DNA from: Bradyrhizobium genosp. L
GTDB lineage: Bacteria; Pseudomonadota; Alphaproteobacteria; Rhizobiales; Xanthobacteraceae
NCBI RefSeq assembly: GCF_015624485.1
Contig: NZ_CP061378.1
Span: forward strand, 6,014,001 to 6,078,000
Direction of reading: 5' to 3'
Length of the DNA stretch: 64,000 nucleotides
The notes below the pieces were generated by a model, which saw only the letters and a program-made list of their open reading frames with translations, searched no databases and was not told where the DNA came from. A program made the position numbers and the translations under genes. Shown here piece by piece: positions 22,024-37,541 of the stretch; the first letter of the stretch is position 1, and each line of letters opens with the position of its first letter.

Positions 22024-22029
22024 CTCGTT

Positions 22030-22103: not shown

Positions 22104-23447
22104 ATGACAGTGACCAGACGCCAGATCGTTGCTGCCCTGCCCGCTGCCGCGCTCGCGGCGAGCCTCCCGCGCGCGCCGGCCCGGGCTGAGGGCGAGCGCA
22201 CGACGGTGACCTTCTGGTTCGCGCAGGCCAACTCTGATGGCCAGGCGGCGCTGCGCACCGATCTCGTCGACGCCTTCAACGCCTCGCAGGACAAGTATCT
22301 GCTGCAGCTCGAGGTGAAGGGCGCGGCGGTCAACAATCTCCTGAAGGTCGCGCTGCTCGCCGGCAACGGCCCGGACATCGTGCAAACGTCGGGTCCCTCC
22401 TATCTCACTGCGATCGCCAATGCCGGCCAGGTGCTGCCGCTCGACGAGTTCGCGGCAAAGTACAAATGGAAGGAGCGCTTCCTGCCGGCGCTGCTCAACA
22501 CCGGCGTCTACGGCGGCAAGCTCTACGCTTTGCCGCGCGATTACGAATCCATGCACATGTTCTACAATAAGCAGCTGTTCAGCGAGAACGGCTGGAAGGT
22601 TCCGACCAACCGCGCAGAGTTCGAAAGCGTCGCGGATGCCGCGCTGGCCAAGGGCGTCACGCCGATCAGCGCCGGCAATGCCGACTGGAAGGGTGTCAAC
22701 GAATGGCTGATGACGGCGTTCTTCAACAACGTCGCCGGTCCCGATAATGTCCGCAAAGCGCTCGGCGGCGAGCTGCCGTGGACGGCGCCGCCCTTTCTCG
22801 AAGCCGTCGACCTCTCGAAGGCCTGGTACGGCAAGGGCTATTTCGGAAAGAACTACCTTTCCCTGACCAACGAGCAGAGCTTTCTCCAGGTGGTGAACGG
22901 CAAGGCTGCGATGGCGTTCAACGGCACCTGGTCGTTCGGCACCAAGTCCTACGGCATGTCGAAGCCCGACACGGTGATGGACGTGGTTCCGATCCCCGGC
23001 CTGAGCGACAAGGTGACCGAGCCGCTGCTGCATCTCGCTTGCGGTGCCACGCTTTCGATCGCGAAGAACTCGCCGAATGCAGAAGGCGCAGCCGCCGTGT
23101 TCGAGTTCATGCTGTCGCGGAATTTCTACCAGACCATGAACCGCGATTGGCCCGGCAAATGGGCGTTGCCGGTAAAAGACCTTCCGCCCGATCTTCTGCA
23201 GGGCATCGGCTATCCGCTGTTCGAGAAGACCATTGCCAGCCTGCACGACGCCTTCAGCAGAGGACGCTTCGGCTTCACCACCTGGACCTTCTGGCCGAAC
23301 GCTGCGAACAGCTATGTCATCGAGGGCATCGAGCAGGTCTGGCTCAACCGGATCACCACCGACGCCTTCCTCAACCGCCTGCAGACGGTGTTCGCCCAGG
23401 AGTTCAAGGACGGAAAGGTGCCGCCGCTGCCTCCACGCATGATGTGA
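22104..23447 (+). CDS. ABC sugar transporter, extracellular binding protein (family 1)
   Basis: A 447-residue periplasmic protein. The leader carries a twin-arginine-like start (TRRQIVAALPAAALAASL) ending APARA. The mature part begins TVTFWFAQANSDGQ, the usual opening of the MalE/UgpB-type family. It should capture a sugar or glycoside and deliver it to the two permeases that follow with 4-bp overlaps. The ATG at 22104 was chosen because the signal peptide starts there, behind an aggaa site. Divergent from the LacI gene. Confidence 0.9.
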   Translation: MTVTRRQIVAALPAAALAASLPRAPARAEGERTTVTFWFAQANSDGQAALRTDLVDAFNASQDKYLLQLEVKGAAVNNLLKVALLAGNGPDIVQTSGPSYLTAIANAGQVLPLDEFAAKYKWKERFLPALLNTGVYGGKLYALPRDYESMHMFYNKQLFSENGWKVPTNRAEFESVADAALAKGVTPISAGNADWKGVNEWLMTAFFNNVAGPDNVRKALGGELPWTAPPFLEAVDLSKAWYGKGYFGKNYLSLTNEQSFLQVVNGKAAMAFNGTWSFGTKSYGMSKPDTVMDVVPIPGLSDKVTEPLLHLACGATLSIAKNSPNAEGAAAVFEFMLSRNFYQTMNRDWPGKWALPVKDLPPDLLQGIGYPLFEKTIASLHDAFSRGRFGFTTWTFWPNAANSYVIEGIEQVWLNRITTDAFLNRLQTVFAQEFKDGKVPPLPPRMM

Positions 23448-24304
23448 GCCGCAGAATGTGGCTGTTCGCGTTGCCCGCGCTGCTCATCAATGTCTGCATC
23501 ATCCTGATCCCGGCGCTGCTGACGCTGATGGCCGCGTTCTTTTTCTGGGATGGCGTGGGCACGCCGGTATGGGCCGGGCTCGCGAACTTCCAGAGCCTGT
23601 TCGACGATCCCGTGTTCTGGACCGCGCTGACCAACAACTTCATCTGGACCGCGATCTTTCTGATCGTGCCGATGTGTCTGGCCGTGGTGATGGCGGCGGC
23701 GCTGATGATCGTCCCCTCCTCCCGTATCGTGGTGCAGTCCGTCATCTTCCTGCCGCGGATCCTCGCCGCCGCCATCACCGGCCGCGTCTTCCAGGGCATG
23801 ATCTTCAGCCCCGTGACGGGATTGCTCGGCTGGCTCAATAATCACGGACTTTCGATCTCGGACCCGCTCGCCGATCCCGACCGCTCGCTGTATGCCGTCG
23901 CCGCGGTCGACATCTGGCATTGGTGGGGCTTTCTCGCGGTAGTGTATTTCGCCGCGATGCGACAGATCAGCGTCGATCAGATCGAGGCCGCCCGTCTCGA
24001 CGGCGCCGGCTTTTTCGCGCTGCTGCGCTATGTGCTGCTGCCCGGCATCCGACCGACGCTGGCACTGATGATGATCCTCACCGTGATCTGGTCGTTCCAG
24101 GTCTTCGAGTTCATCTACATCGTGACCCAGGGAGGTCCAGCGAACGGCAGCGAGGTGCTGGCCACGCTGGCCTATCGTCAGGCCTTCTTCGCCGGCGATG
24201 TTGGAAAGGCGACGGCGGCGGCCTGCGTGATGAGCCTGTTCGGCCTGTGCGCGACGGCGGCGTATCTCTGGCTGCAAGGCCGCGACAGCGCGCACGCCGC
24301 ATGA
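23444..24304 (+). CDS. ABC sugar transporter permease (MalF/UgpA type)
   Basis: A 286-residue membrane protein with about six helices. The EAA loop reads EAARLDGAGFFALLRYVLLPG, which docks the ATPase. The GTG start at 23444 overlaps the binding-protein stop (GTGA); an internal ATG at 23456 is the alternative. With the next gene it forms a CUT1-type heterodimeric channel. Confidence 0.88.
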   Translation: MSRRMWLFALPALLINVCIILIPALLTLMAAFFFWDGVGTPVWAGLANFQSLFDDPVFWTALTNNFIWTAIFLIVPMCLAVVMAAALMIVPSSRIVVQSVIFLPRILAAAITGRVFQGMIFSPVTGLLGWLNNHGLSISDPLADPDRSLYAVAAVDIWHWWGFLAVVYFAAMRQISVDQIEAARLDGAGFFALLRYVLLPGIRPTLALMMILTVIWSFQVFEFIYIVTQGGPANGSEVLATLAYRQAFFAGDVGKATAAACVMSLFGLCATAAYLWLQGRDSAHAA

Positions 24305-25128
24305 CGGAAAGCCGCCTGAACCGGACGCTCTGCCTGGCATTGATCGGCCTCGCGTCCTTCACGTCGCTGCTGCCGATCTTGCTCGCGGTGATGAACGCGC
24401 TGAAGACGACGGTGGAGATCAGCACCAATCCACTGGCGCCACCCCACCAGCTGCACTGGGAGAATTTCACCGCAGCCTGGAACAATGCAGCGCTTGGACC
24501 GAGCCTGCTGCACAGCGCCGAGGTCGCAGGCCTCACCATCGTCATGGTTTGCGCCACCGCTGCGCCTTGCGCCTACGTGCTGGCCCGCCAGCGCGGCCGC
24601 GGCTTCCGCCTGCTCACCTTCTATTTCATGGCCTCGATCACCGTCCCGGTGCAGCTCTATCTCTATCCGCTGTATTTCATCTTCGCCAAGCTCGGCCTGG
24701 TCAACTCGATCCCCGCGGTGGCGCTGATCTACACGGCAATGTTTTCGCCGTTCGCGATCTTCCTGCTACGCACCTATGTGGTCGCAATTCCCTATGCGCT
24801 GGAGGAAGCCGCGGAGGTCGACGGCGCAACGGCGTGGCAGAAATTCTACCATGTCATGCTGCCGATGATGCGGCCAGGGCTTTTGACCGTTGCGATCATC
24901 GTCGGCCTCAACGCCTGGAACGAATTCGTCATCGCGGTGACGTTCCTGCAGAACGACAGCAACGTCACGGCGATCGTGAAATTCTATAATCTGACCGGAC
25001 AGTACTCGACCGATTGGGGCGAGATGCTGGCCGCAGCGGTGACCATCGCGCTGCCGGTCGTGCTGGTCTTCGTGCTGCTACAGCGCCGCTTCATCGACGG
25101 CATGACGGCCGGCGCGGTCAAGTCATAG
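24301..25128 (+). CDS. ABC sugar transporter permease (MalG/UgpE type)
   Basis: A 275-residue membrane protein with about six helices and the EAA loop EEAAEVDGATAWQKFYHVML. The ATG overlaps the previous stop by 4 bp. It is the last gene of the plus-strand unit. No nucleotide-binding subunit follows; the next gene is a convergent HEAT-repeat protein. The importer must therefore borrow an ATPase encoded elsewhere, as several CUT1 importers do. Confidence 0.88.
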   Translation: MTESRLNRTLCLALIGLASFTSLLPILLAVMNALKTTVEISTNPLAPPHQLHWENFTAAWNNAALGPSLLHSAEVAGLTIVMVCATAAPCAYVLARQRGRGFRLLTFYFMASITVPVQLYLYPLYFIFAKLGLVNSIPAVALIYTAMFSPFAIFLLRTYVVAIPYALEEAAEVDGATAWQKFYHVMLPMMRPGLLTVAIIVGLNAWNEFVIAVTFLQNDSNVTAIVKFYNLTGQYSTDWGEMLAAAVTIALPVVLVFVLLQRRFIDGMTAGAVKS

Positions 25129-25148
25129 CCGCTCGCCGGCGTTCAGGT

Positions 25149-26120
25149 TCACGCTTTCGCCTTTTTCGCCACGATCTGTTGCAACGCCCAGCGGGCGTTT
25201 TTTCGTACGTCGGGATCGGCATCGTCGGCGATGACGGCCAGGAACGCTTCGCCGTCGGGATGCGCGATCTCGCCGAGCGCCGCGGCGGCCTCCTTGCGCA
25301 GGTTTGCCTGCTCATGGTTGACGCAGCTTCCGATCGGACGCACCGCGCGCTCGATCTTCATCTTGCCGAGGCTGCGGATCGCCTTGAGCCGCACCTGCCA
25401 GAACGAGTCCGCAAGCGACGCCATCAGCTGATCAGCGGCCAGCGCACCGTTGACGTTGAGTCCCAGCGTCTCGGCCGCCATCTCGCGCACCATCCAGTCC
25501 TCATCTTTGAGTGCGCGCGTCACCGTTTCCGCCGCCGGCTTCATCTGCGAGAATGCCAGCGCGCTCACCGAGGCACGCCGCGCATGCGCATCGGGGTCGT
25601 GGATCAGCGCCGTCAACGCCGGGATCGATTCCTCGAGCTTGAGGAATCCGATCACGCCGATCGCCTGCACGCGCACCGCAGCGTCCTGATCCTGCAACGC
25701 CTCCAGCGCCGGCTTCAGCGTGTCCTTGCGGCGCAGCTCCTTCAACGCACGTAGCGCGCCCATGCGGACGAAGGCGTGGCCATGCTTGACCAGCGGCAGG
25801 ATGACGTCGGCGCAGGCCGGATCCTTGAACTCGGCCATGCTGTCGGCCGCAGCCGACGCCACGATGCTTTCAGGATCGACCAGCAATCGCGCCAACGCGC
25901 TGGCAGCCTCCGGCCCGTCGAACTCCCCGAGCGCCATCGCAACCTGCTGGCGCACGCCAGCGTCGGGATCGGACACCATGTTGGCGAGATGGCCGACCGC
26001 GGCCGGATCGCCGGAATGGCCGAGCGCAATGATGGCGACACGGCGCTCCGCCGGGTCCGCGGCCTGCAACCGCTCATCGGCGTCTTCGAGATCGTCGTAG
26101 GATTCGAACGGGCTCGACAT
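25149..26120 (-). CDS. HEAT-repeat protein
   Basis: A 323-residue soluble protein built of about nine HEAT/PBS-lyase-type helical repeats (for example ERRVAIIALGHSGDPAAV, then QVAMALGEFDGPEAA, then VRKNARWALQQI). Such proteins act as binding scaffolds or, in phycobilin systems, as lyases. Here the ribosome site GAGGTGAG and 2-nt gap after the ferredoxin tie it to the flavoprotein-ferredoxin unit. Inference: a scaffold or maturation factor for that redox complex. Confidence 0.8.
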   Translation of the reverse strand: MSSPFESYDDLEDADERLQAADPAERRVAIIALGHSGDPAAVGHLANMVSDPDAGVRQQVAMALGEFDGPEAASALARLLVDPESIVASAAADSMAEFKDPACADVILPLVKHGHAFVRMGALRALKELRRKDTLKPALEALQDQDAAVRVQAIGVIGFLKLEESIPALTALIHDPDAHARRASVSALAFSQMKPAAETVTRALKDEDWMVREMAAETLGLNVNGALAADQLMASLADSFWQVRLKAIRSLGKMKIERAVRPIGSCVNHEQANLRKEAAAALGEIAHPDGEAFLAVIADDADPDVRKNARWALQQIVAKKAKA

Positions 26121-26122
26121 GC

Positions 26123-26356
26123 TCACCTCAACAGATAGGGAATGTTGACGGTCACGGCGCCGGTCGGGCAATCCGCCTCGCAGGGCATGCAGTACCAGCA
26201 TTCGTCGTAAGCCATGTAGGCCTTGCCGGTCATGTCGCTGATGCGCAGGACGTCGAGCGGGCAAACGTCGACGCACACCGTGCAGCCTTTGTCCGCGATG
26301 CATTTGGCGTCGTCGACCACCACCGGGACCGATGTCTGGTAGGAAGCGAGAGGCAT
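26123..26356 (-). CDS. Two-cluster [4Fe-4S] ferredoxin (AprB-like)
   Basis: A 77-residue ferredoxin with eight cysteines in two sets, C19/C25/C28/C32 and C53/C56/C59/C63, enough for two [4Fe-4S] clusters. The spacing (CxxxxxCxxCxxxCP and CxxCxxCxxxCP) resembles the ferredoxin part of AprB, the beta subunit of adenylylsulfate reductase, without its C-terminal tail. It lies between the flavoprotein and the HEAT gene on the same strand and should pass electrons to or from the flavoprotein. The start at 26356 follows an AGGAGA site; longer ORF extensions are non-coding. Confidence 0.88.
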   Translation of the reverse strand: MPLASYQTSVPVVVDDAKCIADKGCTVCVDVCPLDVLRISDMTGKAYMAYDECWYCMPCEADCPTGAVTVNIPYLLR

Positions 26357-26382
26357 CGTCAATCTCCTGTTGATCTTCGGTG

Positions 26383-26430
26383 AAAGCGTTTTCGAGCGAA
26401 GTGGATACCGGTTCGCGTGAAGAAAACGCG
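26383..26430. repeat. 48-bp dispersed repeat, copy 1
   Basis: A 48-bp sequence beginning aaagcgttttcgagcgaag, with a near match (3 differences) at 50524-50571. It fills part of the 89-bp gap between the flavoprotein and ferredoxin genes. The ends (gcgttttc and gaaaacgc) are inverted, so the transcript can fold. It is probably a short palindromic intergenic element. Confidence 0.75.
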
Positions 26431-26445
26431 TCAGAAACAGACCGT

Positions 26446-28188
26446 TCACGCGCTGACGCGGATGCGCTGCTTGTCGTAGAGATCCTTCTCGTCGTCGGCG
26501 ATCGGCACGACATAGGGCTCCACGGCACGCTTCTCGCTCGTCATCCTGCCGTCCTGCTTGGACAGCAGCGTATGGCAGAACCAGTTCTCGTTGTCCTTCT
26601 CCGGGAAATCCGTGCGCCAATGGTAAAGGCCCCAACGGCTCTCTTCGCGGAACAGCGAGGCATGCGCCGCCATGTCGGCGCAGTCCATGATCGACTGCAC
26701 CTCGAGTGCGCGAAGCAACTCGTGCGCATTGCGGGCGATCATGTGCTGCTGCATGTCCTCGCGGACTTCGGCGAGCCTGTTCATGCCGAGCTCGTATTTG
26801 CGGGTCACCTTCGGCGGCTGCAGATAATCGTTCACCAGGCGCCGCGTCTTGTATTCGATCTGGTTCGGGGGAATGCCGTCCTCGCGCGTTGTCGGGGCCA
26901 GCACCCGCTCCCGCTCCAGCGCGACGTCGGCAGCGTCGAAATCAGCAAAATCGTGGCTCTCGGCGAATTCCATCGCATCGGTGCCGGCAACCGAGCCGTT
27001 GGTGAAAGCGCCCAGCATGTAATTATGCGGCACGCTCGCCATGTCACCCGCTGCGTAAAGGCCTGGCACCGTGGTCCGCGCGTTATCGTCGACGAACACG
27101 CCGGAGGCGCTGTGGCCGGAGCAGAGACCGATCTCGGAGATATGCATCTCGATCGATTCCGAGCGGTAATCGACCCCTCGCCCCTGCTGGAACAGGCCGC
27201 GCGTCGGCCGCTCGACCTTGTGCAGGGTCTGTTCGATCTCCTCGATGGTCTTTTCATGGAGGTGCTTGAGCTGGAGGAAGACTGGGCCCTTGCCCGAGAG
27301 CAGCTCATTGTAGAACTCGAGCATCATCTGGCCCGACCAGTAGTCGCATTCGATGAAGCGCGAGCCCTCATTGTTGGCGGTGAAGGCGCCGAACGGGCCG
27401 GCGACATAGGCACAGGCCGGGCCGTTATAGTCCTTGATCAGCGGATTGATCTGGTAGCATTCGAGGTTCGCGAGTGCAGCTCCGGCGTGATAGGCCATCG
27501 CATAGCCGTCGCCGGAATTCGCGGCGTTCTCGTAGGTGCCGAACATGTAACCCGAGGTCGGAAGCCCGAGCCGGCCGGCGGCGCCCATGCACAGGATGAC
27601 GGCCTTGGCCTTGATCACCAGGATCTCGGCGGTCCGCGTGTTGACGCTGATCGCGCCGGCCACCCTGCCATCGGCGGACTTCAGCAGCCGCGTCGCCATA
27701 TAGCGGTTCGAGATCAGGATGCGGGCGCGGCGAAGCTGGCGGTACAGCGCCTTCTTCACGGTCTCGCCGTTCGGCATCGGCAGCACATAGGTGCCGATAT
27801 GGTGGACCTTCTTGACGGCGAAGTCGCCGTTCTCGTTCTTCAGGAAGCGAATGCCGAAGCTGTCGAGCTCCTCGATGATCTTGTAGCAGTTCTGGGCATA
27901 TTTGTAGACCGCCTTCTGATCGACGATGCCGTCGTTGGCGATCGTGATCTCCTTGGTGTACTGCTCGGGCGTTGCGTAGCCGGGAATGACGGCGTTGTTG
28001 AGCCCGTCCATGCCCATCGAGATCGCACCGGAGCGCTTGACGTTGGCCTTCTCGAGCAGCACGACGTCAGCCTTCGGGTTCTTCAGTTTCGCCTTGAGTG
28101 CGGCCATCGGGCCGGCGGTGCCGCCGCCGATCACCAGCACGTCGCAGGAAACCTCCGAAAGTCCGTCGACGATCTGATCTAGTGCCAT
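26446..28188 (-). CDS. AprA/fumarate-reductase-like FAD protein
   Basis: A 580-residue FAD oxidoreductase. The dinucleotide-binding motif VLVIGGGTAGPMAA is near residues 17-30. It has the succinate dehydrogenase/fumarate reductase/AprA fold, with a C-terminal part (EESRWGLYHWRTDFPEKDNENW) of the AprA type. Together with the AprB-like ferredoxin downstream it resembles a divergent adenylylsulfate-reductase-like pair, but no sat or qmo genes are present, so the substrate is open. The start at 28188 was chosen for its AGGAGC site; an ORF to 28263 overlaps the promoter motif. Confidence 0.85.
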   Translation of the reverse strand: MALDQIVDGLSEVSCDVLVIGGGTAGPMAALKAKLKNPKADVVLLEKANVKRSGAISMGMDGLNNAVIPGYATPEQYTKEITIANDGIVDQKAVYKYAQNCYKIIEELDSFGIRFLKNENGDFAVKKVHHIGTYVLPMPNGETVKKALYRQLRRARILISNRYMATRLLKSADGRVAGAISVNTRTAEILVIKAKAVILCMGAAGRLGLPTSGYMFGTYENAANSGDGYAMAYHAGAALANLECYQINPLIKDYNGPACAYVAGPFGAFTANNEGSRFIECDYWSGQMMLEFYNELLSGKGPVFLQLKHLHEKTIEEIEQTLHKVERPTRGLFQQGRGVDYRSESIEMHISEIGLCSGHSASGVFVDDNARTTVPGLYAAGDMASVPHNYMLGAFTNGSVAGTDAMEFAESHDFADFDAADVALERERVLAPTTREDGIPPNQIEYKTRRLVNDYLQPPKVTRKYELGMNRLAEVREDMQQHMIARNAHELLRALEVQSIMDCADMAAHASLFREESRWGLYHWRTDFPEKDNENWFCHTLLSKQDGRMTSEKRAVEPYVVPIADDEKDLYDKQRIRVSA

Positions 28189-28260
28189 TGCCTGCTCCTG
28201 GTTCGCCGGCGCGACCGGCGCCATTGCATGAGATTTGCCGAGGTGGTCCCGCCGCGATAG

Positions 28261-28270
28261 CAATTAGTTG
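28261..28270 (-). promoter_or_regulatory. Shared promoter motif, copy a
   Basis: caattagttg on the plus strand, i.e. CAACTAATTG read toward the flavoprotein gene, 73 bp upstream of its start. Related copies lie at 29151-29159, 29232-29241 and 30651-30660 in front of the other units of this module. Candidate operator, possibly for the Crp/Fnr protein at 29805. Confidence 0.5.
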
Positions 28271-28293
28271 TCAGCGGCGGACAATTGCCGGCC

Positions 28294-29067
28294 CTATCGC
28301 TCGACGAACGCTTTCTCGATTACGAAGTGACCGGGCTGGCTGTGATTGCCCTCGGCAAAGCCGCGCGCCGTGAACATCGTATGGAGTTCTTCGAGCATCG
28401 CCGGGCTGCCGCAGAGCATGATCCGATCGGTATCGCGGTCGAGAGCGGGCTGCCCGATGTCCTCGAAGAGCTGATCGGAAGCGATCAGGTCGGTGATGCG
28501 GCCGCGGTTCCTGAACGGCTCGCGGGTGACGGTCGGATAATAGACCAGCCTGTCCCTGATCAAGTCGCCGAGGAATTCGTGGTCACGCAGGCTCTCGACG
28601 AGTTGCTCGCCATAGGCCAGTTCCGAGATTTGGCGGCAGCCGTGGGCCAGCACGATGGTCTCGTAGCTCTCGTAGACGTCGGGGTCCTTGATCAGGCTCG
28701 CGAAGGGTGCGAGCCCCGTTCCGGTCGACAGCAGCAGCAGCCGTTTGCCCGGCAGGAGATTACCGGTGATCAGCGTGCCGGTCGCCTTGCGGCCGACCAG
28801 GATGATGTCGCCTTCCCTGATCTTCTGAAGCCGCGAGGTCAAAGGACCATCAGGCACCTTGATGCTGAAGAACTCCAGTGCTTCCTCGTGATTTGCGCTC
28901 GCCAGGCTGTAGGCACGCACCAGCGGGCGGCCATCGACTTCAAGCCCGATCATCGCGAACTGGCCGTTCTGGAAGCGAAAGCCGGGATCGCGTGTCGCGG
29001 TGAAGCTGAACAGGGATTCGGTCCAGTGCTTGACCGAGAGGACCGTTTCCTTCTGAAAAGCGCTCAT
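28294..29067 (-). CDS. fpr: Ferredoxin-NADP(+) reductase
   Basis: A 257-residue FAD enzyme with the flavin motif RAYSLAS, the NADP motif GTGLAPFASLI and the bacterial C-terminal ending FVIEKAFVER. It exchanges electrons between NADPH and ferredoxin in the cytoplasm. Gene order places it with the flavoprotein-ferredoxin pair, for which it is the likely electron entry or exit. The start at 29067 was chosen for the canonical N-terminus (MSAFQKETVLSV). A copy of the module's promoter motif lies 84 bp upstream. Confidence 0.92.
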   Translation of the reverse strand: MSAFQKETVLSVKHWTESLFSFTATRDPGFRFQNGQFAMIGLEVDGRPLVRAYSLASANHEEALEFFSIKVPDGPLTSRLQKIREGDIILVGRKATGTLITGNLLPGKRLLLLSTGTGLAPFASLIKDPDVYESYETIVLAHGCRQISELAYGEQLVESLRDHEFLGDLIRDRLVYYPTVTREPFRNRGRITDLIASDQLFEDIGQPALDRDTDRIMLCGSPAMLEELHTMFTARGFAEGNHSQPGHFVIEKAFVER

Positions 29068-29150
29068 CGTTCGTCTCTCCTTGCATGCGCGATGCAAGGC
29101 AAAGTCCGGAATGACGCGAATCCCGCAACCGCGATCTGTCGTCTTCGGTC

Positions 29151-29159
29151 GATTAGTTT
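29151..29159 (-). promoter_or_regulatory. Shared promoter motif, copy d
   Basis: gattagttt on the plus strand (AAACTAATC toward fpr), about 84 bp upstream of the fpr start. It matches the core AACTAATC of copy c. Confidence 0.45.
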
Positions 29160-29231
29160 CACATTTTGCGGGCGATGATTTGCAAGCAGGCAATCCGCTG
29201 CGACAAGCCCGTGGCTTTGCATCGAATCCGG

Positions 29232-29241
29232 CAATTAGTTG
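29232..29241. promoter_or_regulatory. Shared promoter motif, copy b
   Basis: caattagttg, identical over 10 bp to copy a, about 50 bp upstream of the DUF971 gene and 165 bp upstream of fpr. It may serve either divergent unit. Confidence 0.45.
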
Positions 29242-29290
29242 CTGGCCAGCCCATCCGTCGCGGTGTCAGGAAGGACGGTGGAGAATAGCC

Positions 29291-29596
29291 ATGACCGTGA
29301 CTGCATTGGTGGCGCCGACCGTGACCGATTACGAAGCCAGCGTCGATCTCGCGACACTCGTCGTCCGCACCGCGCATGACGAACAGGTCGAGCTCGCCGC
29401 CGAGCAGCTTCGCCTCGCCTGCAAATGCGCCCACTGCACGCGGGCCCGCTTCGATGGACGGTTTCCCGAACGGTTTCCGGGAATCGCGATCACCGGGATC
29501 GACGATCTCGGCTACGGGCTGAACATCGCCTTCTCGGACGGGCACAATCGCGGAATCTATCCAAAAAATTATCTACTGAGACTGGCAGGACACTAG
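29291..29596 (+). CDS. DUF971 domain protein
   Basis: A 101-residue protein of the DUF971/GBBH-like family, with the cysteine cluster CKCAHC and the conserved C-terminal stretch YGLNIAFSDGHNRGIYP. The domain is often found fused to or beside iron-sulfur carrier proteins of the ApbC/Mrp type. Here it is divergent from fpr and shares its control region, so a role in iron-sulfur supply to the redox module is plausible but inferred. The ATG at 29291 begins the conserved part. Confidence 0.75.
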   Translation: MTVTALVAPTVTDYEASVDLATLVVRTAHDEQVELAAEQLRLACKCAHCTRARFDGRFPERFPGIAITGIDDLGYGLNIAFSDGHNRGIYPKNYLLRLAGH

Positions 29597-29804
29597 CCGA
29601 TCTTCCGTTCTATCCGGGACCCCGACCGGCAAGCCTCCGTTCTATAAATACCCCGCTTTTCAGTGATGGATTTCCGCCCCCGCGCGCTTGGCGCGGTCCC
29701 GACATCACGCAGGCGTCGGCGCCTGGCCGTCCCGACTTGCCAACCCGCTCTGGCACGGACATTGCTCCTGTTTAGAACGGTTTGAACAATCCGGAGGCGG
29801 CTCG

Positions 29805-30581
29805 ATGTTACTGCAGGCGGCCAATGCGGTTCGCGCGACCGTTCCCGCTACAATCCGGCCTGCCGGCAGCTCCTCGCTGCTGCTCACCGAGAACCGGCGA
29901 TGGATCGGCGGCCCACCACCGCTGATGGACAAGCTCACGCCGCGCGAGCGCGAGCTGGTGCTGAAGCAAGGCCGCCGCAAGGTCCTCAATCGCGGACAGA
30001 CCCTGTTCAACCAGGGCGGCAAGCACGACGGCATCTGGCTGATCGAAAGCGGCCGGATCCGTGTCTTCTACATCTCGCCCCAGGGGCGCGAGATCACGCT
30101 CGCCTACTGGCACGTCGGCAATTTCGTCGGTGGACCCGAAGTGTTCGAAGGCACCGTCCATCAATGGTCGGGCATTGCATCGAGCAATTGCAGCGTCGTG
30201 CACCTGCCTGGAAAAGAGCTGCGTTCGCTGGCCGCGGAGCTGCCAAATCTCGCCATCGGCCTGATCGAAGGCCTGACGTTCAAGGGCAAATGTTACTCGG
30301 CGCTGGCGCAGATGCTGGGGACGCGCTCCGTCACCCAGCGTCTGGCCCATCTGCTGCTGCATCTCGTCGAACTCTACGGTGTGGAGGACGCAGACGGCAC
30401 GGTGATCGCGGCGGCGTTCACCCATGCCGACATCGCCCACATGGTCGGCGCCACCCGGCAGTGGGTGACGATCAGCCTCAAGCGCATGCAGGAAAAAGGC
30501 ATCGTCCTGACCAAACGCTCCCAGATCGTGGTTTGTCGGCCCGAGGTCCTGGAGGAGATGCGGGGGCAAGCGTCCGATTGA
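29805..30581 (+). CDS. Crp/Fnr-family transcriptional regulator
   Basis: A 258-residue regulator with a cyclic-nucleotide-binding-type beta roll (about 50-160) and a C-terminal winged helix (FTHADIAHMVGATRQWVTISLKRM). It lacks the N-terminal cysteine cluster of Fnr, so direct oxygen sensing by an iron-sulfur cluster is not supported. The start at 29805 is preceded by ccggaggcgg; a longer ORF upstream is unconvincing. It lies in the middle of the redox module and is its likely regulator. Confidence 0.9.
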   Translation: MLLQAANAVRATVPATIRPAGSSSLLLTENRRWIGGPPPLMDKLTPRERELVLKQGRRKVLNRGQTLFNQGGKHDGIWLIESGRIRVFYISPQGREITLAYWHVGNFVGGPEVFEGTVHQWSGIASSNCSVVHLPGKELRSLAAELPNLAIGLIEGLTFKGKCYSALAQMLGTRSVTQRLAHLLLHLVELYGVEDADGTVIAAAFTHADIAHMVGATRQWVTISLKRMQEKGIVLTKRSQIVVCRPEVLEEMRGQASD

Positions 30582-30650
30582 CGCCGATGCACATGCAATT
30601 GGCTTTAGGCGGCAAAACTGCACAAGGAGTAAGCAACCGGCATTTCCCGG

Positions 30651-30660
30651 CAACTAATCG
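30651..30660 (+). promoter_or_regulatory. Shared promoter motif, copy c
   Basis: caactaatcg, 87 bp upstream of the binding-protein start, in the same orientation relative to its gene as copies a and d. Confidence 0.5.
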
Positions 30661-30746
30661 ACAGCGCCGATGAATCCGGATTTGCCCTGCCCGCGCCCTC
30701 ACCCAATCATGGCAACCACAGCACATCCAACCGAAAGAGGATGAGA

Positions 30747-32168
30747 ATGGTCCGCCACCTTCCCACGCTCTCGCTCGCGATGTCGGTGACGTCGCTGGCG
30801 CTTCTGTTCGCGCAGCCGGCCGCGGCGGAAACGGTGACGATCGGCATCGGCACGCAGGATACGACCAGCAACACCGTCACCGCCGGCGTCGTCATCCGGC
30901 AGCTCCATTTGCTGGAAAAATACCTGCCGACCGGCGGCAAATACGCCAACATCAAGTTCGAGCTGGATTGGCAGAACTTCACGTCCGGTCCGCCCGTCAC
31001 CAATGCGATGATGGCGAACAAGCTGCAGATCGGCATGATGGGCGACTATCCGCTGATCGTGAACGGCTTCACGTTCGAAAACAATCCCGAGAGCAAGAGC
31101 CGCTTGATCGCGGTTGCCGCCTACAGCCTCTCCGGCTCGGGCAACGGCATCGTCGTCCACAAGGACTCGCCGTACTACGATCTCGCCGATCTCAAGGGCA
31201 AGCTCGTCAGCGTGCCCTTCGGCTCCGCGGCGCACGGCATGGTGCTGAAGGCGATGCAGGACCGCGGCTATGGATCGGATTATTTCCAGCTCGTGAGCCA
31301 GAGCCCCGAGGTCGGCTCGACCAATCTGCAGGAGAAGAAGATCGACGCGCATGCCGACTTCGTACCCTTTGCCGAGTTGCTGCCGTTCCGCGGCTTCGCG
31401 CGCAAGATCTTCGACGGCGTCGAGACCAATCTGCCGACCTTTCACGGCGTCGTGGTGCGCACCGACTTCGCGGACAAGTACCCCGAGGTCGTCGTCGCCT
31501 ACATGAAGGCCATCATCGCCGCCAACCAGTGGCTGCGCGATGATCCCAAGCTCGCCGCAGAGAAAATCCAGGAGTGGACCGGCATCAACAAGGAGGTGGT
31601 CTACATCTTCCTCGGACCCGGCGGCAACATGACCACCGATCCCACCATCAAGCCCGCGCTGATCGACGCCGCCACCACCGACGTCGCGGTGTTGCAGAAG
31701 CTCGGGCGCATGAAGGAATTCGATCCGAAGAAATGGGTGGATGATTCGTACATCCGCAAGGCTTACGCCGAGATGAAGCTCGACTATGACGCGCAGCTCG
31801 CGAGCACCAGGAATTACGAGATCAAAGGCGAAGACAGCTTCTGCAAGAAGCCGATCGCCGATCCGCGCAAGGCCGGCCAAGTTTGGGTCGATGATGCCGG
31901 CATCCTGCCGTTTGCCAGCGCCTCCTGCACGCTCGGCGCCTACGCCGATTTCAAGGCCAAGGGCAGGAAGATCGACGTCGCCTATGTCTTCGACACCACG
32001 AGGGGCATCAAGCTGTTCGCCGACCAGGCATTCTATGCCGTCGGCGACGGCGAGGTGGCGCCGTTCTTGCTGAAGAAGGATGCGGAAGCCTATGCCGCGA
32101 AGATCAACGGCAAGGTTCTCGGCTTCGATGACGCTGTGAAATCCGCGGTCAACGGAGGCAAGACGTGA
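30747..32168 (+). CDS. Sulfonate/nitrate-type ABC binding protein with C-terminal NosL-like domain
   Basis: A 473-residue periplasmic protein with a signal peptide (ends PAAAE). Residues about 25-350 are an SsuA/TauA/NrtA-type binding fold (NVxxGVVIRQLHLLEKYL-like opening, GIVVHKDSPYYDLADLKGK). Residues about 365-473 look like NosL: FCKKPIADPRKAG, a second Cys in PFASASCTLGAY, then VFDTTRGIKLFADQAFYAVG and GKVLGFDDA. NosL is a copper-binding accessory protein of nitrous oxide reductase. The family's usual length is about 320-340, so the extra 110 residues are a real extension. The GTG start of the permease overlaps its stop. The ATG at 30747 has GAGG at 6 nt. Confidence 0.8.
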   Translation: MVRHLPTLSLAMSVTSLALLFAQPAAAETVTIGIGTQDTTSNTVTAGVVIRQLHLLEKYLPTGGKYANIKFELDWQNFTSGPPVTNAMMANKLQIGMMGDYPLIVNGFTFENNPESKSRLIAVAAYSLSGSGNGIVVHKDSPYYDLADLKGKLVSVPFGSAAHGMVLKAMQDRGYGSDYFQLVSQSPEVGSTNLQEKKIDAHADFVPFAELLPFRGFARKIFDGVETNLPTFHGVVVRTDFADKYPEVVVAYMKAIIAANQWLRDDPKLAAEKIQEWTGINKEVVYIFLGPGGNMTTDPTIKPALIDAATTDVAVLQKLGRMKEFDPKKWVDDSYIRKAYAEMKLDYDAQLASTRNYEIKGEDSFCKKPIADPRKAGQVWVDDAGILPFASASCTLGAYADFKAKGRKIDVAYVFDTTRGIKLFADQAFYAVGDGEVAPFLLKKDAEAYAAKINGKVLGFDDAVKSAVNGGKT

Positions 32169-33070
32169 GCAGCAGTCCCGCCATCCTGCGGCCGCCGCAG
32201 GACGCCATGCCGGCACCAGCAGCCGTGAGCGAACCCGCACCCGCCGCGACACCCGTCCCGTCGCCGTCGTTCGGCACGCTCGCGGGGCGCTGGTATCGGC
32301 TCAATCAGGACCGGCTGCGCGCAATGGCGCTCGCCGCGATCTCGCTCGCCGCCTTCCTGATGCTGTGGCATCTGCTCACCACCTATCGCGTCGTGTTCTT
32401 CGTGCGCTTCACCAACGTGCCTTCGCCGCTCGCGGTCTATGCGAGCTTCAGCAGGGCGATCCACGATCCGAAGTTCCTGCTGCACCTGCTGCTGAGCTGC
32501 CGCCGCATCCTGTTCGGCTTCTCGCTCGCCGCAATCGTCGGCGTGCCGCTCGGACTGGTCATGGGACGCTTCAAGCTGATCCATGAGATCGTCTTCCCGG
32601 TCGCGGAAGTGCTGCGGCCGATCCCGGCGATCGCCTGGGTCCCGATGGCGATCATGCTGTGGCCGACCAACGAGCAGAGCATCGTCTTCATCACCTTCCT
32701 CGGCGCCTTCTTCCCGATCCTGGTCAACACGCTGCATGGCATGTCGCTGGTCGATCCGGTTCTGGTGCGCGCGGCGCAATGTCTTGGTGCCCGGGAGCGC
32801 TCGATCTTCCGCGAGGTGTATTTTCCCGCCTCGCTCCCGCACATCTTCACCGGCCTCACCGTCGGCATGGGCGTGGCATGGGTCTCGCTGATCGCCGCCG
32901 AGATGATTTCCGGACAATACGGCATCGGCTATTTCACCTGGGAAGCCTATTCGCTGGTGCAGTATCCCGACATCGCGCTCGGCATGATCGCGATCGGCGT
33001 GCTCGGACTGGCATCGAGCCTCGTGATCCGAAGCGCCGGCCGGCTGGTGATGCCATGGAGGCCGAAATGA
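32165..33070 (+). CDS. ABC transporter permease (SsuC/TauC/NrtB type)
   Basis: A 301-residue inner-membrane permease with about six helices after a Pro/Ala-rich N-terminal tail. The ATPase-docking loop is near VRAAQCLGARERSIFREVYFP. It starts with GTG overlapping the binding-protein stop, and its stop overlaps the ATPase start, so all three are one operon. Confidence 0.88.
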   Translation: MSSSPAILRPPQDAMPAPAAVSEPAPAATPVPSPSFGTLAGRWYRLNQDRLRAMALAAISLAAFLMLWHLLTTYRVVFFVRFTNVPSPLAVYASFSRAIHDPKFLLHLLLSCRRILFGFSLAAIVGVPLGLVMGRFKLIHEIVFPVAEVLRPIPAIAWVPMAIMLWPTNEQSIVFITFLGAFFPILVNTLHGMSLVDPVLVRAAQCLGARERSIFREVYFPASLPHIFTGLTVGMGVAWVSLIAAEMISGQYGIGYFTWEAYSLVQYPDIALGMIAIGVLGLASSLVIRSAGRLVMPWRPK

Positions 33071-33939
33071 ACGAGGTTCGAAGCAGCCCGCCGAAGGGTC
33101 ACATCGAGGTCAACAACTTCTCGCTCAGCTATGAGAGCATCGACGGCGCCGTGCAGGCCGTCACCGACACACACATCCACGTCAATCCGGGCGAGTTCGT
33201 CTCGATCGTCGGCCCCTCCGGATGTGGCAAGTCGACGCTGCTCAACGCGGTCGCAGGTTTCCTCAAGCCCACCACCGGGATCGTCACCGTCGATGGCGAG
33301 CCGGTGAACGGCCCGAGCGCCGAGCGCGGCATGGTGTTCCAGCAATATTCGCTGTTTCCATGGAAGACGGTGCGGGAGAACGTCGAGTTCGGCCTGAAGA
33401 TGCGCGGCATGGCGCGCTCGCAACGCGAGCGGGCCGCGCGCACGCTGCTCGGCCTCGCCGGGCTCGAGGCGTTCGAGAAGCACTATCCGGAAAAGCTCTC
33501 CGGCGGCATGAAGCAGCGCGTCGGCATCGTGCGGGCGCTCGCCACCGGACCGAAAGTGCTGCTGCTCGACGAGCCGTTCGGCGCACTCGACGCCCAGACC
33601 CGCGTCATCATGCAGCAGATCCTCACCAACATGTGGCAACGGCTGAAGATCTCGGTGCTGTTCGTCACCCATGACATCGACGAGGCGATCTTCCTGTCCG
33701 ATCGCGTCTACTGCATGACCGCACGCCCCGGCTCGATCAAGGCGGAAATCCCGATCCCGCTCGAGCGCCCGCGGCAGCAGGCGATGATGATGTCGTCGGA
33801 GTTCTTAGGGCTGCGTCGCGGATTGATGTCGCTGATCCGCGAGGAAAGCCTGAAGGCGATGGGCGGCGAGATCAACGACCTCGGCATGCAGGGACTGAAC
33901 ATCGAGCTGCACGGCCATTCGCTCGCCGAGGTGCTGTAG
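33067..33939 (+). CDS. ABC transporter ATP-binding protein (SsuB/TauB/NrtD type)
   Basis: A 290-residue ATPase with Walker A GPSGCGKST, Q-loop FQQYSLFPW, signature LSGGMKQR, Walker B VLLLDEP and the switch His in VTHDIDEA. It energises the permease encoded just upstream. The ATG at 33067 overlaps the permease stop (ATGA) and has GGAGG at 6 nt; an ATG at 33055 is less likely. The last 60 residues extend beyond the core, as is common in this subfamily. Confidence 0.92.
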   Translation: MNEVRSSPPKGHIEVNNFSLSYESIDGAVQAVTDTHIHVNPGEFVSIVGPSGCGKSTLLNAVAGFLKPTTGIVTVDGEPVNGPSAERGMVFQQYSLFPWKTVRENVEFGLKMRGMARSQRERAARTLLGLAGLEAFEKHYPEKLSGGMKQRVGIVRALATGPKVLLLDEPFGALDAQTRVIMQQILTNMWQRLKISVLFVTHDIDEAIFLSDRVYCMTARPGSIKAEIPIPLERPRQQAMMMSSEFLGLRRGLMSLIREESLKAMGGEINDLGMQGLNIELHGHSLAEVL

Positions 33940-34038
33940 CGACCACGCTGCTCGGCCACGAACCCGATGCGCGCCAAAATGTCGAAAACAACCCCATGCA
34001 AAGGAGCCGTCAAGCTGCCGGCACGGGGAAATAGCAAC

Positions 34039-34068
34039 TTGACACGTCGGGCAACTCAGCGGTATTTT
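34039..34068 (+). promoter_or_regulatory. Orphan sigma-70-like promoter
   Basis: TTGACA (34039-34044) and TATTTT (34063-34068) with an 18-nt spacer, in the 249-bp gap between the ABC ATPase gene and the convergent CBS gene. No plus-strand gene follows within 450 bp of the site. It may be part of a dispersed intergenic element or drive a small RNA; neither is shown. Confidence 0.3.
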
Positions 34069-34188
34069 TTGATTATTCCGAACTCGGTCGAATATCCCCG
34101 CTTTTGGCGCTGAAAGTCCGTCGGGTCTGGAAGCCGGCTACGGCGCCGCAAGATCGCGGACGGGGGCGACGGCACCGCGGTTCGTCTG

Positions 34189-34632
34189 TCAGCCGCCGGG
34201 GCCGTCCTTCATGATGTAGCCCATCAGGTCGCCCAAATTGTGCTCCAAATCCCGGATGATGTTCTTGACGACGTCTCCGATCGAGATCACGCCCACGACC
34301 TTGCCCGCGTCCAGCACCGGCAGATGGCGAAAGCCGCGCGCAGCCATCAAGGCCATGCAGCCGTCCAGCGGATCGTCCGGTTTGACCGTAACCGGCTTGC
34401 CCGTCATCACTTGAGCCACCGGCGTCTGCTTCGCATCGAGCCCGGGCAGCAGTACTTTGATGGCGCAATCACCCTGGGTCACGATACCGACCAGCACGTC
34501 GTCGTCGATGACCAGCACCGACCGGACCCGGTTGTCGCGCATCTGGCGCAAGGCTTCGACGACCATGTCGCCGGAACGGACATGGATCAGGGCGCCCTTC
34601 TTCTGGGCCAGAGCATTTTTGACTGTGCTCAT
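34189..34632 (-). CDS. CBS-domain protein
   Basis: A 147-residue protein made of two CBS domains (about 15-65 and 80-135; motifs VRSVLVIDDDVLVGIVTQGD and FRHLPVLDAGKVVGVISIGD). Such pairs bind adenosine nucleotides and sense energy status. It is monocistronic on the minus strand, convergent with the ABC operon. The partner it regulates is not evident. Confidence 0.88.
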   Translation of the reverse strand: MSTVKNALAQKKGALIHVRSGDMVVEALRQMRDNRVRSVLVIDDDVLVGIVTQGDCAIKVLLPGLDAKQTPVAQVMTGKPVTVKPDDPLDGCMALMAARGFRHLPVLDAGKVVGVISIGDVVKNIIRDLEHNLGDLMGYIMKDGPGG

Positions 34633-35081
34633 CGACCTCCCCTCGTCGGCCCCGTCCTGCCGGCGTCATGGTCCGCGTTGAAGGTTAGTCGAAATATCTC
34701 GCCCTGTCAGCACCGCGCCGATGTCGCCGGCGAAGCCTGCCACCGATCCAGGCGGCGGGATTTTCACCGCTTCGATGCGTAACCCTGCAGCACCTTCATT
34801 ACTTCCACTTCGAAGCCCCGGCAAAGGGACTGATTGCGGACGCAGAAGCCGCCGACTTGCTTCATCGCGCGCGGGAGCGGTGAGGCTTGAGACGGAACGA
34901 GCAACCGGCCCCAAGCAGACAAGCGCGATGGAATTGCACCTTCAGGCAGTTCGGCGCTTCAAGCTCGGTCGTTGGTGAAGACCGTGATCGTTCTGCCGCG
35001 AAAGCCCGGGAAAAATGCGAAGTGAAAATTCGGGACCATCTGATGGCCCGGATCGGGACGCACATTTGTCTTCAATGAAAA
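34633..35081. other. Intergenic stretch with no gene seen
   Basis: 449 bp between the CBS gene and tRNA-Met. Short ORFs here lack ribosome sites and coding character. No integrase, attachment-like duplication of the tRNA end or terminator was found. Confidence 0.4.
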
Positions 35082-35158
35082 TGGTAGCGGGAGAGGGACT
35101 TGAACCCCCGACCCCAGGATTATGATTCCCGTGCTCTAACCAGCTGAGCTACCCCGCC
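35082..35158 (-). tRNA. tRNA-Met (anticodon CAT), elongator type
   Basis: A 77-nt cloverleaf on the minus strand: acceptor GGCGGGG with TCCCGCT, D-arm GCTC/GAGC, anticodon stem CGGGA/TCCTG with loop ATCATAA (anticodon CAT), T-arm with TTCAAGT loop, and encoded CCA. The first pair is G-U and the last is G-U. Elongator rather than initiator is favoured because the three G-C pairs typical of initiator anticodon stems are not seen. A tRNA-Ile(CAT) is possible but less likely. Confidence 0.92.
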
Positions 35159-35274
35159 AGGGCGTCGCGATCGACGGCCGAGCGGCCGCGGGTGCGAACG
35201 GGCGGGATATAAAGAGTGGGGGCCGCGCCTGTCAAGCAAACCCGGCCCTCGCCACAACATATTGGAGACAGGCG

Positions 35275-35643
35275 TTATTTCGGTCTCACCGAGGGGTCGC
35301 CACCGGGGCTGCCGGGCGGCGGAATCACCGGGGTGTTGCCGCCTTCCGGGGTTGGCGCGCGGATCTCCGGATCGACGCTCGCGGGCGGGCACAGCACCCC
35401 GTCGGATTTGGCGAGCTTGTCGCCGAGCGGCTGGCTGCTGCCTTGACCGGTCGTGGTTCCGTCCGGCGCCGCCGCGCCCGGATGCGACGGCTCTCGCATC
35501 GGGGCGCAATTCGCGGTCCGTGCCGGCTGCGGCGGCGCAGTCTGGGCCGGCGGCGTTGCGGGCGCCGGCGGCGCCTGGGCTACGGCGATCGCGGGCAACG
35601 CCATCAAGGCGCAGGACAGCGCGAGGGTGCGGTTCAATCTCAT
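35275..35643 (-). CDS. Small Pro/Ala-rich exported hypothetical protein
   Basis: A 122-residue protein with a clear signal peptide (MRLNRTLALSCALMALPAIA, cleavage after VAQA) and a low-complexity, Pro-rich mature part with two cysteines. I recognise no domain; function unknown. Codon use is like that of its neighbours, which supports it as real. Confidence 0.6.
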   Translation of the reverse strand: MRLNRTLALSCALMALPAIAVAQAPPAPATPPAQTAPPQPARTANCAPMREPSHPGAAAPDGTTTGQGSSQPLGDKLAKSDGVLCPPASVDPEIRAPTPEGGNTPVIPPPGSPGGDPSVRPK

Positions 35644-35696
35644 GCCGGGAAAACCGCGACACCGCGCGGATGTTCCCCGTCAAATTGGTCGCAGCC

Positions 35697-36335
35697 TCAC
35701 GTTTTGCGGAAACGGATCAGCGAGAAATGCCCCATCGGCGGCATCGGCCGCCGTTCCGCGAGGCTGACGCCGCCATGCCGCGCCGCCCAATCGGTCAGCC
35801 GGGCCCACGGAAATTCCGGCCGCCAGCCGAGCCGCCGCGCCAGCGGCGCGAAGGCGAGCTCGAAGGCCCGGCGCGGCCCGCTCTCGGCGCCGATGTGATT
35901 GACCAGGATCAACTCGCCGCCGGGCTTCAGCACGCGGATGAAATCGTCGAGCGTCGCCTCAGGATCCGGCACCGCGGTGATGACGTATTGCGCGACCACC
36001 GCGTCGAAGAACGCATCTGAAAATGCCAGGTTCTTGGCGTCCATCACCGCCAGCATCTCGACATTGCTCAAGCTGAGTGCGCGCACACGCTTGAGCGCCC
36101 GCCGCAGCATCGGCGCCGAGATATCGACGCCATAGAGTTTCGTGGTGCGCGCATAGTCCGACAGCGACAGGCCGGTGCCGACGCCGACATCGAGCACGCG
36201 CCCGCCGATCCGATCGGCCTCTGCGATCGTCGACTGCCGGCCCTGATCGAACACCTTGCCGAACACGAGATCGTAGACCGGCGCCCAGCGCCCATACGCC
36301 TTTTCGACCCCCTCGCGGTCGATGTCCCCAGCCAT
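35697..36335 (-). CDS. Class I SAM-dependent methyltransferase (PmtA-like)
   Basis: A 212-residue enzyme with SAM motif I VLDVGVGTGLS, the acidic motif YGVDIS and motif III VLKPGGELILV. The N-terminal AYGRWAPVYDLVFG resembles the Rhodobacter-type phosphatidylethanolamine N-methyltransferase. That would make it a phosphatidylcholine-synthesis enzyme, but ubiquinone-type and other small methyltransferases share this frame. It lies 21 bp downstream of mnmA on the same strand. Confidence 0.75.
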   Translation of the reverse strand: MAGDIDREGVEKAYGRWAPVYDLVFGKVFDQGRQSTIAEADRIGGRVLDVGVGTGLSLSDYARTTKLYGVDISAPMLRRALKRVRALSLSNVEMLAVMDAKNLAFSDAFFDAVVAQYVITAVPDPEATLDDFIRVLKPGGELILVNHIGAESGPRRAFELAFAPLARRLGWRPEFPWARLTDWAARHGGVSLAERRPMPPMGHFSLIRFRKT

Positions 36336-36356
36336 CCCTGCCCCGACGCCTTTTCT

Positions 36357-37541
36357 CTATTCTGCGAGCGTTGCCATTGCATCGCGTGGCACAGCGCGCG
36401 CAACACGGCTCGCGCTCGCGCTCTTGATGAAGCCGCCGCCCAGCACGCGCGCCTGCCCCGAGGCCGCGTCGTAGAACACGCAGGCCTGGCCGGGCGAGAC
36501 GCCCTCCTCGCCGGCGACGAGCTCGACCTCGTAGCCGCCATCGGCGGCGCGCAGCCAGGCCGGCTGCGGCGCGCGCGTCGAGCGGACCCGGACATGGATC
36601 TCGATGCCGTCGCCGATCACGCGATCCAATGCGCCGTCGCCGATCCAGTTGACGTCGCGCAACGCGATGCGGTCCATGCGCAGCGCCTCGCGCGGCCCGA
36701 CCACGACACGGCGCGTCGCCGCATCGAGCTTGACCACATAGAGCGGATGGCCGGACGCGATGCCGAGCCCCTTGCGCTGGCCGACTGTGAAATGAACGAT
36801 GCCCTGGTGCCGGCCGATCACGTTGCCGTCGAGGTCGACGATCTCGCCCGGCGCGATCGCGTTCGGCTTCAGCCGTCCGATGATGTCGGTGTAGCGGCCG
36901 GTCGGCACGAAGCAGATGTCCTGGCTGTCCTGCTTGTCGGCGACCTCGAGGCCGAAGCGCCGCGCCAGCTCGCGGGCTTGCGGCTTGGTCATGTCGCCGA
37001 GCGGAAAGCGCAGGAAGTCGAGCTGCTCGCGCGTGGTCGCGAACAGGAAGTAGCTCTGGTCGCGATCGGCATCGGCGGCGCAGACCAGCGCGCGCGACCC
37101 GTCGGCCAGCCGGCGCGAGGCGACATAATGCCCGGTGGCGAGCGCCTGCGCGCCGAGCTCGCGTGCGGTCGACAGCAAATCGCGGAACTTGACCGAACGG
37201 TTGCACTCGATGCACGGCACCGGCGTCTCGCCGAGCGCGTAGCTGTCGGCGAAATTGTCGATCACGGATTCCTTGAAGCGGCTCTCATAGTCGAGCACGT
37301 AATGCGGGATGCCGATCCGCTCGGCGACATTGCGCGCATCATGGATGTCGCGGCCGGCGCAGCAGGCGCCCTTGCGATGGGTCGCCGCGCCGTGGTCGTA
37401 GAGCTGCAGCGTGATCCCGACCACGTCGTAGCCCTGCGACTTCAAAAGCGCAGCGGTCACCGAGGAGTCGACGCCGCCAGACATGGCGACCACGATCCGT
37501 GTGTCCTCAGGGCGGCCTTGGAGATCCAAATCGTTGAGCAT
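36357..37541 (-). CDS. mnmA: tRNA-specific 2-thiouridylase MnmA
   Basis: A 394-residue enzyme that makes 2-thiouridine at the wobble position of tRNA Lys, Glu and Gln. The ATP pyrophosphatase loop SGGVDSSV is near residues 15-22. The catalytic cysteines are visible in [10 protein letters not shown] and DICFVPTG. The C-terminal tRNA-binding barrel is present (GQACVFYD). Length is normal. Probably cotranscribed with the downstream methyltransferase gene. Confidence 0.95.

Follow-up and report, generated by a model that had tools for sequence, protein, structure and literature searches.

The 64,000-nt window analysed here, from Bradyrhizobium genosp. L (contig NZ_CP061378.1, positions 6,014,001-6,078,000), holds at 25149-33939 a block of nine genes, identified by Pfam and NCBIfam scans, that places a flavoenzyme next to an importer. 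From strand and spacing, the genes likely form four units. The first, on the minus strand from 28188 down to 25149, encodes a flavin adenine dinucleotide (FAD) flavoprotein of the PRK08275 family, the proposed catalytic subunit (26446-28188); an 8-Cys 2[4Fe-4S] ferredoxin, probably the electron-carrying subunit (26123-26356; Fer4_7, 34 bits); and a HEAT-repeat protein, probably a structural subunit of the flavoenzyme (25149-26120; HEAT_2, 218.7 bits). The second is a lone minus-strand gene running from 29067 to 28294 for a ferredoxin-NADP reductase-like protein, Fpr (PF00175 and PF00970; the best NCBIfam match, PRK10926, reaches 142.2 bits, below its cut-off of 390). The third, on the plus strand (29291-30581), joins a DUF971/GBBH-like_N protein, a possible Fe-S maturation helper (29291-29596; PF06155, 47.8 bits), to a Crp/Fnr-type regulator (29805-30581; PF13545, PF00027). 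The fourth, also on the plus strand (30741-33939), encodes an ATP-binding cassette (ABC) importer: a periplasmic binding protein of the SsuA/NMT1 type with a predicted SsuA/TauA-like fold and a putative C-terminal NosL-like domain (30741-32168), a permease (32165-33070; PF00528, 93 bits; the best NCBIfam matches, NF040733 and ntrB, both lie below cut-off) and an ATPase (33067-33939; PF00005, 120.4 bits). Of the roles considered for this widely spread import-plus-redox module, sulfur chemistry that yields sulfite has the best support.

The original prediction had described the block as a single redox/transport module and proposed comparing gene neighbourhoods among relatives. A scan of species genomes with the flavoprotein, which is single-copy in this genome, gave at least 554 relatives. 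The 80 best loci were retained, 53 from Bradyrhizobium and 27 from elsewhere; loci shorter than 17 kb (three and seven, respectively) are excluded from the counts. Within these best loci, the genes for the flavoprotein, ferredoxin, HEAT protein, binding protein, permease, ATPase, DUF971 protein and Crp-like regulator are all present in 50/50 of the remaining Bradyrhizobium contigs, and fpr in 47/50. Outside the genus, 61 loci with the same 17-kb minimum, each chosen for holding the flavoprotein, were drawn from genome scans (20 + 9), plasmid-collection records (19) and two further sets (13). They cover alpha-, beta- and gammaproteobacteria, Acidithiobacillus, cyanobacteria and the actinobacterium Tsukamurella; two of them (L106 and L150) are the same contig and five records (L123-L127) carry no annotation. 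The ferredoxin accompanies the flavoprotein in 58 of these loci, the HEAT protein in 60, the binding protein in 51 and the DUF971 protein in 47; the counts for permease (57) and ATPase (59) may take in unrelated ABC genes nearby, that for the binding protein being stricter. The core is thus kept in most of the 61, and linkage of the module genes recurs far beyond chance and across phyla, which bears the one-module claim out. The sole locus scored without HEAT is that of Tsukamurella, in which flavoprotein and HEAT form one fused protein (PRK13800). Three Hyphomicrobium loci have the flavoprotein and HEAT protein with no ferredoxin or binding-protein match, and the Nostoc copy has two annotated sulfonate-type binding proteins, neither above 30% identity to that of the window. 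The flavoprotein occurs in 21/398 sampled Pseudomonadota genomes (own genome counted), in 6/120 and 7/115 genomes from the orders of genomes G324 and G062 (these centre genomes counted), and in 54 plasmid-collection records. This patchy presence, together with the plasmid matches, suggests horizontal spread.

What does the flavoprotein do? Its membership of PRK08275 is clear (NF006131, 1061 bits against a curated cut-off of 587), but the family name reads only "fumarate reductase/succinate dehydrogenase flavoprotein subunit", and the domains found are FAD_binding_2 and Succ_DH_flav_C. The best relative in the PDB is 8a8o_A (6.5e-75), the alpha subunit of the AprAB-like 3'-phosphoadenosine 5'-phosphosulfate (PAPS) reductase of Methanothermococcus. 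The AprAB-like build of flavoprotein and 8-Cys ferredoxin noted originally holds. The accompanying view that this is probably not reduction of adenosine 5'-phosphosulfate (APS) is also upheld. We take the AprA residues of interest to be Asn74, Trp234, Arg265 and His398, with Arg265 acting in the substrate site. The Arg265 column holds Leu250 in 13/13 family rows and Arg in 3/3 AprA rows and in 8a8o; the Trp234 column holds Tyr219 in 13/13. Asn and His at the Asn74 and His398 columns are kept in all 13 (N64, H359). The AprA model TIGR02061 gives 158.8 bits against a cut-off of 641.75, while true AprA rows (L012, L024, L025) reach 926-1085. Likewise, the SdhA motifs QFHPT and NRLGG, with the dicarboxylate-binding His and Arg, occur in 0/13 family rows versus 3/3 SdhA rows, and the succinate dehydrogenase model TIGR01812 gives 172.6 bits against 567.3. 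The flavoprotein therefore passes neither as an APS reductase nor as a succinate dehydrogenase. The family has motifs of its own: K/R-x-V-H, YVLPMP, GTYEN, GHSASG and PHxYMxGAF in 109/109 rows, and MGMDG[LV]N and INPLxKDYNGP in 108/109, many of these rows being close kin. A tree of the 13 family, three AprA and three SdhA rows had outgroup branches of 9-10 changes per column attached at different places, and it neither placed nor rooted the family nor recovered it as one side of a branch. AprA Glu141 was dropped as a membership test, since it is missing from two of the three AprA rows as aligned, and an AlphaFold model of the flavoprotein (11 sequences) was set aside at a mean predicted local distance difference test score (pLDDT) of 49.9.

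The ferredoxin carries its second cluster motif, CWxC..C...CP, in 105/106 rows, with a Trp after the first Cys. Its sequence matches in the PDB include AprB (3gyx_B, 1jnr_B) and PAPS reductase beta (8a8o_C), although these are weak and polyferredoxins score higher. For the PAPS reductase, sulfite release following attack of flavin N5 on sulfur has been proposed, as has a part for Trp42 in electron transfer (PMC10322725); the conserved ferredoxin Trp may correspond to Trp42. With the Fpr-like reductase encoded alongside, the predicted NADPH-linked flavin/iron-sulfur partners are present. In three cyanobacterial copies an Mrp/NBP35 Fe-S carrier occurs with no DUF971 match, and L166 has both. Proteins of 1182 and 1153 residues, 46% identical to each other, adjoin the module at L160:12242-15790 and L128:10574-14035; they resemble glutamate synthase beta/NAD(P)H oxidoreductases (PRK06567, 780 bits, below the cut-off of 1072). 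There is no Fpr match at these two loci.

The importer and the neighbourhood in relatives both point towards sulfur. The modelled structure of the window's binding protein has the SsuA/TauA-type fold, appears closest to sulfonate and taurine binders and lies nearer to SsuA/TauA than to NrtA. The sulfite-linked protein YeiH, described as the main sulfite-resistance factor of Salmonella (PMC12880088) and as a putative sulfite exporter of Hyphomicrobium (PMC12423496), is encoded within the fetched stretch of 36/52 Bradyrhizobium loci (L033 and L053 being one contig) and of 10/61 other loci. About 0.14 would be expected in the latter, a rough baseline taken from a general sample of 60 Pseudomonadota genomes (25 copies scoring above cut-off across 227 Mb, ~0.0023 per 21 kb), applied to stretches of 17-30 kb and obtained with a profile built from YeiH at these very loci. 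The module gene nearest to YeiH varies (ATPase, Fpr, Mrp, DUF971 on either strand, Crp, GntR or FdxA), and several independent joinings of YeiH to the module are therefore likely. The YeiH loci are not all independent of one another. On three cyanobacterial plasmids, YeiH and TauE/SafE follow Mrp. TauE/SafE is found near 6/61 loci with a four-sequence profile, a count with no baseline and thus not used as a statistic.

The units also appear to share a promoter element. The pattern GCAAYTAGTTG, with core CAAYTARTTG, occurs exactly at 28260-28270, upstream of the flavoprotein unit, and at 29231-29241, in the gap from which fpr and the DUF971 gene diverge. Allowing two mismatches, it also occurs at 30650-30660, upstream of the binding-protein gene. 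At up to two mismatches the window has 23 matches versus 10.9 (sd 3.6) in shuffles, near-palindromes being counted on both strands. The pattern was chosen from the window, so the relatives provide the fair test: in ten hand-picked Bradyrhizobium/Rhodopseudomonas-type loci, at up to one mismatch, there are 29 boxes in 14.1 kb of module intergenic DNA, none in 78.2 kb of module genes and two in 125 kb outside. A box between the binding-protein and Crp genes is found in 7/10 of these loci, and the two exact boxes of the window are likewise conserved in relatives. Five more distant alphaproteobacteria have 1, 0, 1, 1 and 2 intergenic boxes and, together, one genic box and two outside. Regulators vary, being Crp-like in most alphaproteobacteria and GntR/UTRA (at least 40% identity) in 26/61 loci, and a LysR gene lies beside the flavoprotein on three cyanobacterial plasmids. 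Control of the units probably lies with the local Crp-like protein, acting at the common box.

A distinct subtype of the module is linked to copper genes. In 10/61 loci the importer operon is extended by a 230-residue membrane protein with no Pfam match, SCO1/SenC and a cytochrome c, with PCuAC in 9/10 (L101:13811-20481; also L095, L100, L103, L104, L107, L110, L115, L165 and L166). All ten have the motif GHQSMCTDT, offering His, Met and Cys, in a loop of the binding protein that is taken to line the binding pocket. MCTDT occurs in one of 93 scored loci without SCO, an Acidithiobacillus plasmid copy whose binding-protein gene looks damaged; loci whose loop the pattern missed (two were seen) are scored as lacking the motif. 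We interpret the subtype as handling a different class of ligand or as having a pocket assisted by copper. The C-terminal NosL-like match, which the original prediction did not contain, is weak in the window's binding protein (23.1 bits against a Pfam cut-off of 24) and reaches 25.8 in that of L119. Copper ligands of NosL domains are presumably conserved Cys, Met and His residues. Beside YeiH at L101:5826-7141 are two genes resembling, by eye from their N-termini, subunits of nitrile hydratase or thiocyanate hydrolase.

Taken together, we see about an even chance that the block is a self-contained sulfur-scavenging module that imports an organosulfonate-like compound and releases sulfite from it with ferredoxin and NADPH. 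The ABC importer would bring in an organosulfur anion, with a sulfonate-like R-SO3- molecule as the most likely candidate. A cytoplasmic flavoprotein-ferredoxin-HEAT complex, built like an APS/PAPS reductase, would then cleave it reductively, with electrons passing from NADPH through Fpr and ferredoxin to the flavoenzyme. Cleavage would probably proceed via a flavin N5-sulfite adduct, and the sulfite set free could enter ordinary assimilation or be exported. The DUF971 protein, or Mrp in cyanobacteria, may mature the Fe-S clusters.

Several observations weigh against this proposal. The window has no YeiH, and the genome's only copy lies at 2.15 Mb, 3.9 Mb from the module at 6.04 Mb. Of the originally predicted import of a sulfur- or nitrogen-containing compound, the sulfur half is favoured by the binding-protein fold and the recurrent YeiH neighbours of relatives, though no YeiH lies near the window's own copy. 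The binding protein falls short of the SsuA family (TIGR01728, 123.3 bits against 163.5), and no counterpart above 30% identity is found in 10/61 non-Bradyrhizobium loci. Some neighbours look nitrogen-related, with amidase matches at 7/61 loci (two of them the same contig) and amtB and glnK beside the module in Aquabacterium, and the proposal does not account for the copper chaperones of 10/61 loci. With Leu250 and Tyr219 in place of Arg265 and Trp234, APS-type chemistry would apply by analogy only. Finally, an ordinary alkanesulfonate is an improbable target for flavin N5, because attack at its sulfur would need a carbanion to leave; the substrate should therefore be special, for instance sulfoacetate-like, an S-sulfonate or a sulfamate.

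It is conceivable, although we consider it unlikely, that the pathway runs in the oxidative direction, with an imported reduced or sulfane sulfur compound converted to sulfite and electrons delivered to ferredoxin and NADP. YeiH neighbours would fit this equally well, the ferredoxin/Fpr chain is reversible, a YeeE/YedE gene lies near the Nostoc copy, and the TlpA-like, SCO, PCuAC and cytochrome c genes of the extended version hint at periplasmic thiol or redox work. However, the predicted fold of the binding protein resembles sulfonate binders, ferredoxin and NADP are unusual acceptors in aerobes, and no Sox or Hdr gene stands among the annotated features of the plasmid-collection loci, a statement about annotation to which no dedicated search was added.

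Supply of nitrogen, by reduction of an imported nitrile, amide, sulfamate, nitro compound or N-oxide, is similarly improbable. Besides the amidase and amtB/glnK neighbours, it could draw on the permease and ATPase, which match nitrate-type models below cut-off, and on an allophanate hydrolase in Methylobacterium. Such neighbours are scattered, though, whereas YeiH recurs more often; several copies lie near sulfonate-type binding proteins, flavin mononucleotide (FMN) monooxygenases or methionine-sulfur genes (LLM matches at 4/61 loci), and the modelled fold favours SsuA/TauA over NrtA. Genes for PRK06169-type amidases were seen near the module at L120:15761-17131 and L150:3303-4670.

Could the binding protein instead capture a soft copper-binding ligand such as thiocyanate, a thiol or a cyanide-like compound, with copper in the pocket of one subtype? 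The presence of GHQSMCTDT at all ten loci with SCO and the weak NosL-like domains of the window and L119 proteins would agree with this, but we find it doubtful. The window's own subtype has GTQDTTSNT in the loop and none of the copper genes, for which reason copper import is kept as a rival only. The L101 binding protein, of the copper subtype, has no NosL match at E 0.001, and in alignments of 18 and 21 rows no column beyond residue 355 holds an invariant or nearly invariant Cys, Met or His.

An enzyme for an organic acid of the fumarate reductase/succinate dehydrogenase kind, as annotated, accords with the two Pfam domains but is very unlikely given the absent QFHPT and NRLGG motifs, the low TIGR01812 score and the lack of a membrane-anchor gene in the block. 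Least probable of all is a reserve APS/PAPS reductase serving sulfate assimilation: the best solved relative of the flavoprotein is an AprAB-like PAPS reductase, but the Arg kept in 8a8o is Leu250 here, the genome has two PAPS_reduct-family genes (presumably cysD and cysH), and the importer is a dedicated one of sulfonate type.

A LacI/sugar-type ABC system borders the block at one end and a CBS-domain protein at the opposite end, and an open reading frame with an ADP-ribosylglycohydrolase domain lies upstream (18799-20949). An Rfam scan of window positions 22000-36500 gave a downstream tRNA gene (35085-35158) and one weak mir-598 match. The same kind of scan in six relatives gave a cobalamin riboswitch directly downstream of the module fpr (L031:18216-18417) and a transfer-messenger RNA in L122. 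On Mesorhizobium pMLa (L117:12001-16873), an IS110 element separates HEAT from a short Crp gene, and no binding protein of the module type was found in the stretch. On pMRAD01 (L121:4754-6801), the annotated Qat anti-phage defence genes qatC and qatD lie a few kb from the module.

How new is the system? The original prediction called it undescribed, and aimed literature searches gave no paper recognised as dealing with it. A 2025 plasmid survey, however, predicts two cargo operons to serve organosulfonate uptake and assimilation, and a figure legend places "ferredoxin/APS reductase/GntR" and "NirT/TauT sulfonate transporter" modules along pAca1.1, pTcM1 and pTC-F14 (PMC12375680). The annotation of pTcM1, from Acidithiobacillus caldus, holds the module gene set, and on that basis the survey's operons appear to be copies of the module; "undescribed" thus has to be qualified by this annotation-level prediction for one species, given in a survey section with no comparative or mechanistic analysis (PMC12375680). 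The published prediction agrees with organosulfonate scavenging, and part of the idea is thus already in print. The literature searched, judged mostly from listings, contained neither the anatomy of the module across phyla nor its link to sulfite, the promoter box or the subtype associated with copper genes. If the proposal is right, many soil, plant-associated and some clinical bacteria, as well as cyanobacteria, have a so far unassigned means of obtaining sulfur (or another element) from organosulfur compounds, in genes whose present annotation reads just "fumarate reductase" and "nitrate ABC transporter"; desulfonation would gain a further chemistry, and the PRK08275 and PRK13800 families a function.

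Among known systems, PRK13800 (NF010374) belongs to the same superfamily branch and, in Tsukamurella, adjoins the same kind of importer, but it fuses flavoprotein and HEAT where the window has separate genes. Searches by PRK08275, PRK13800 and NF006131 gave no published function for PRK13800, although one of the names does occur in print. Dissimilatory APS reductase, AprAB, shares the FAD alpha subunit of the same superfamily, the small 2[4Fe-4S] beta subunit and the FAD-site Asn and His, whereas the module differs at the Arg265 and Trp234 positions, scores far below the AprA cut-off and has its own importer and a HEAT partner. The Methanothermococcus PAPS reductase is the closest solved relative, described as sulfite-releasing with a ferredoxin-like beta subunit; unlike the module enzyme, it keeps the Arg, and it acts on a nucleotide. 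SsuABC and TauABC are one-permease NMT1-type ABC importers with a comparable binding-protein fold, to which the module adds a putative C-terminal NosL-like domain. In place of the oxygenases SsuD and TauD, the module has a flavin/Fe-S enzyme that may not need oxygen. A more specific, and more tentative, possibility is an oxygen-independent desulfonation in which a flavin/Fe-S "sulfonate reductase" of AprAB-like build, served by a dedicated importer, partly spread by plasmids over several phyla and with copper in the binding-protein pocket of one subtype, would release sulfite using ferredoxin electrons rather than an oxygenase or a glycyl-radical lyase.

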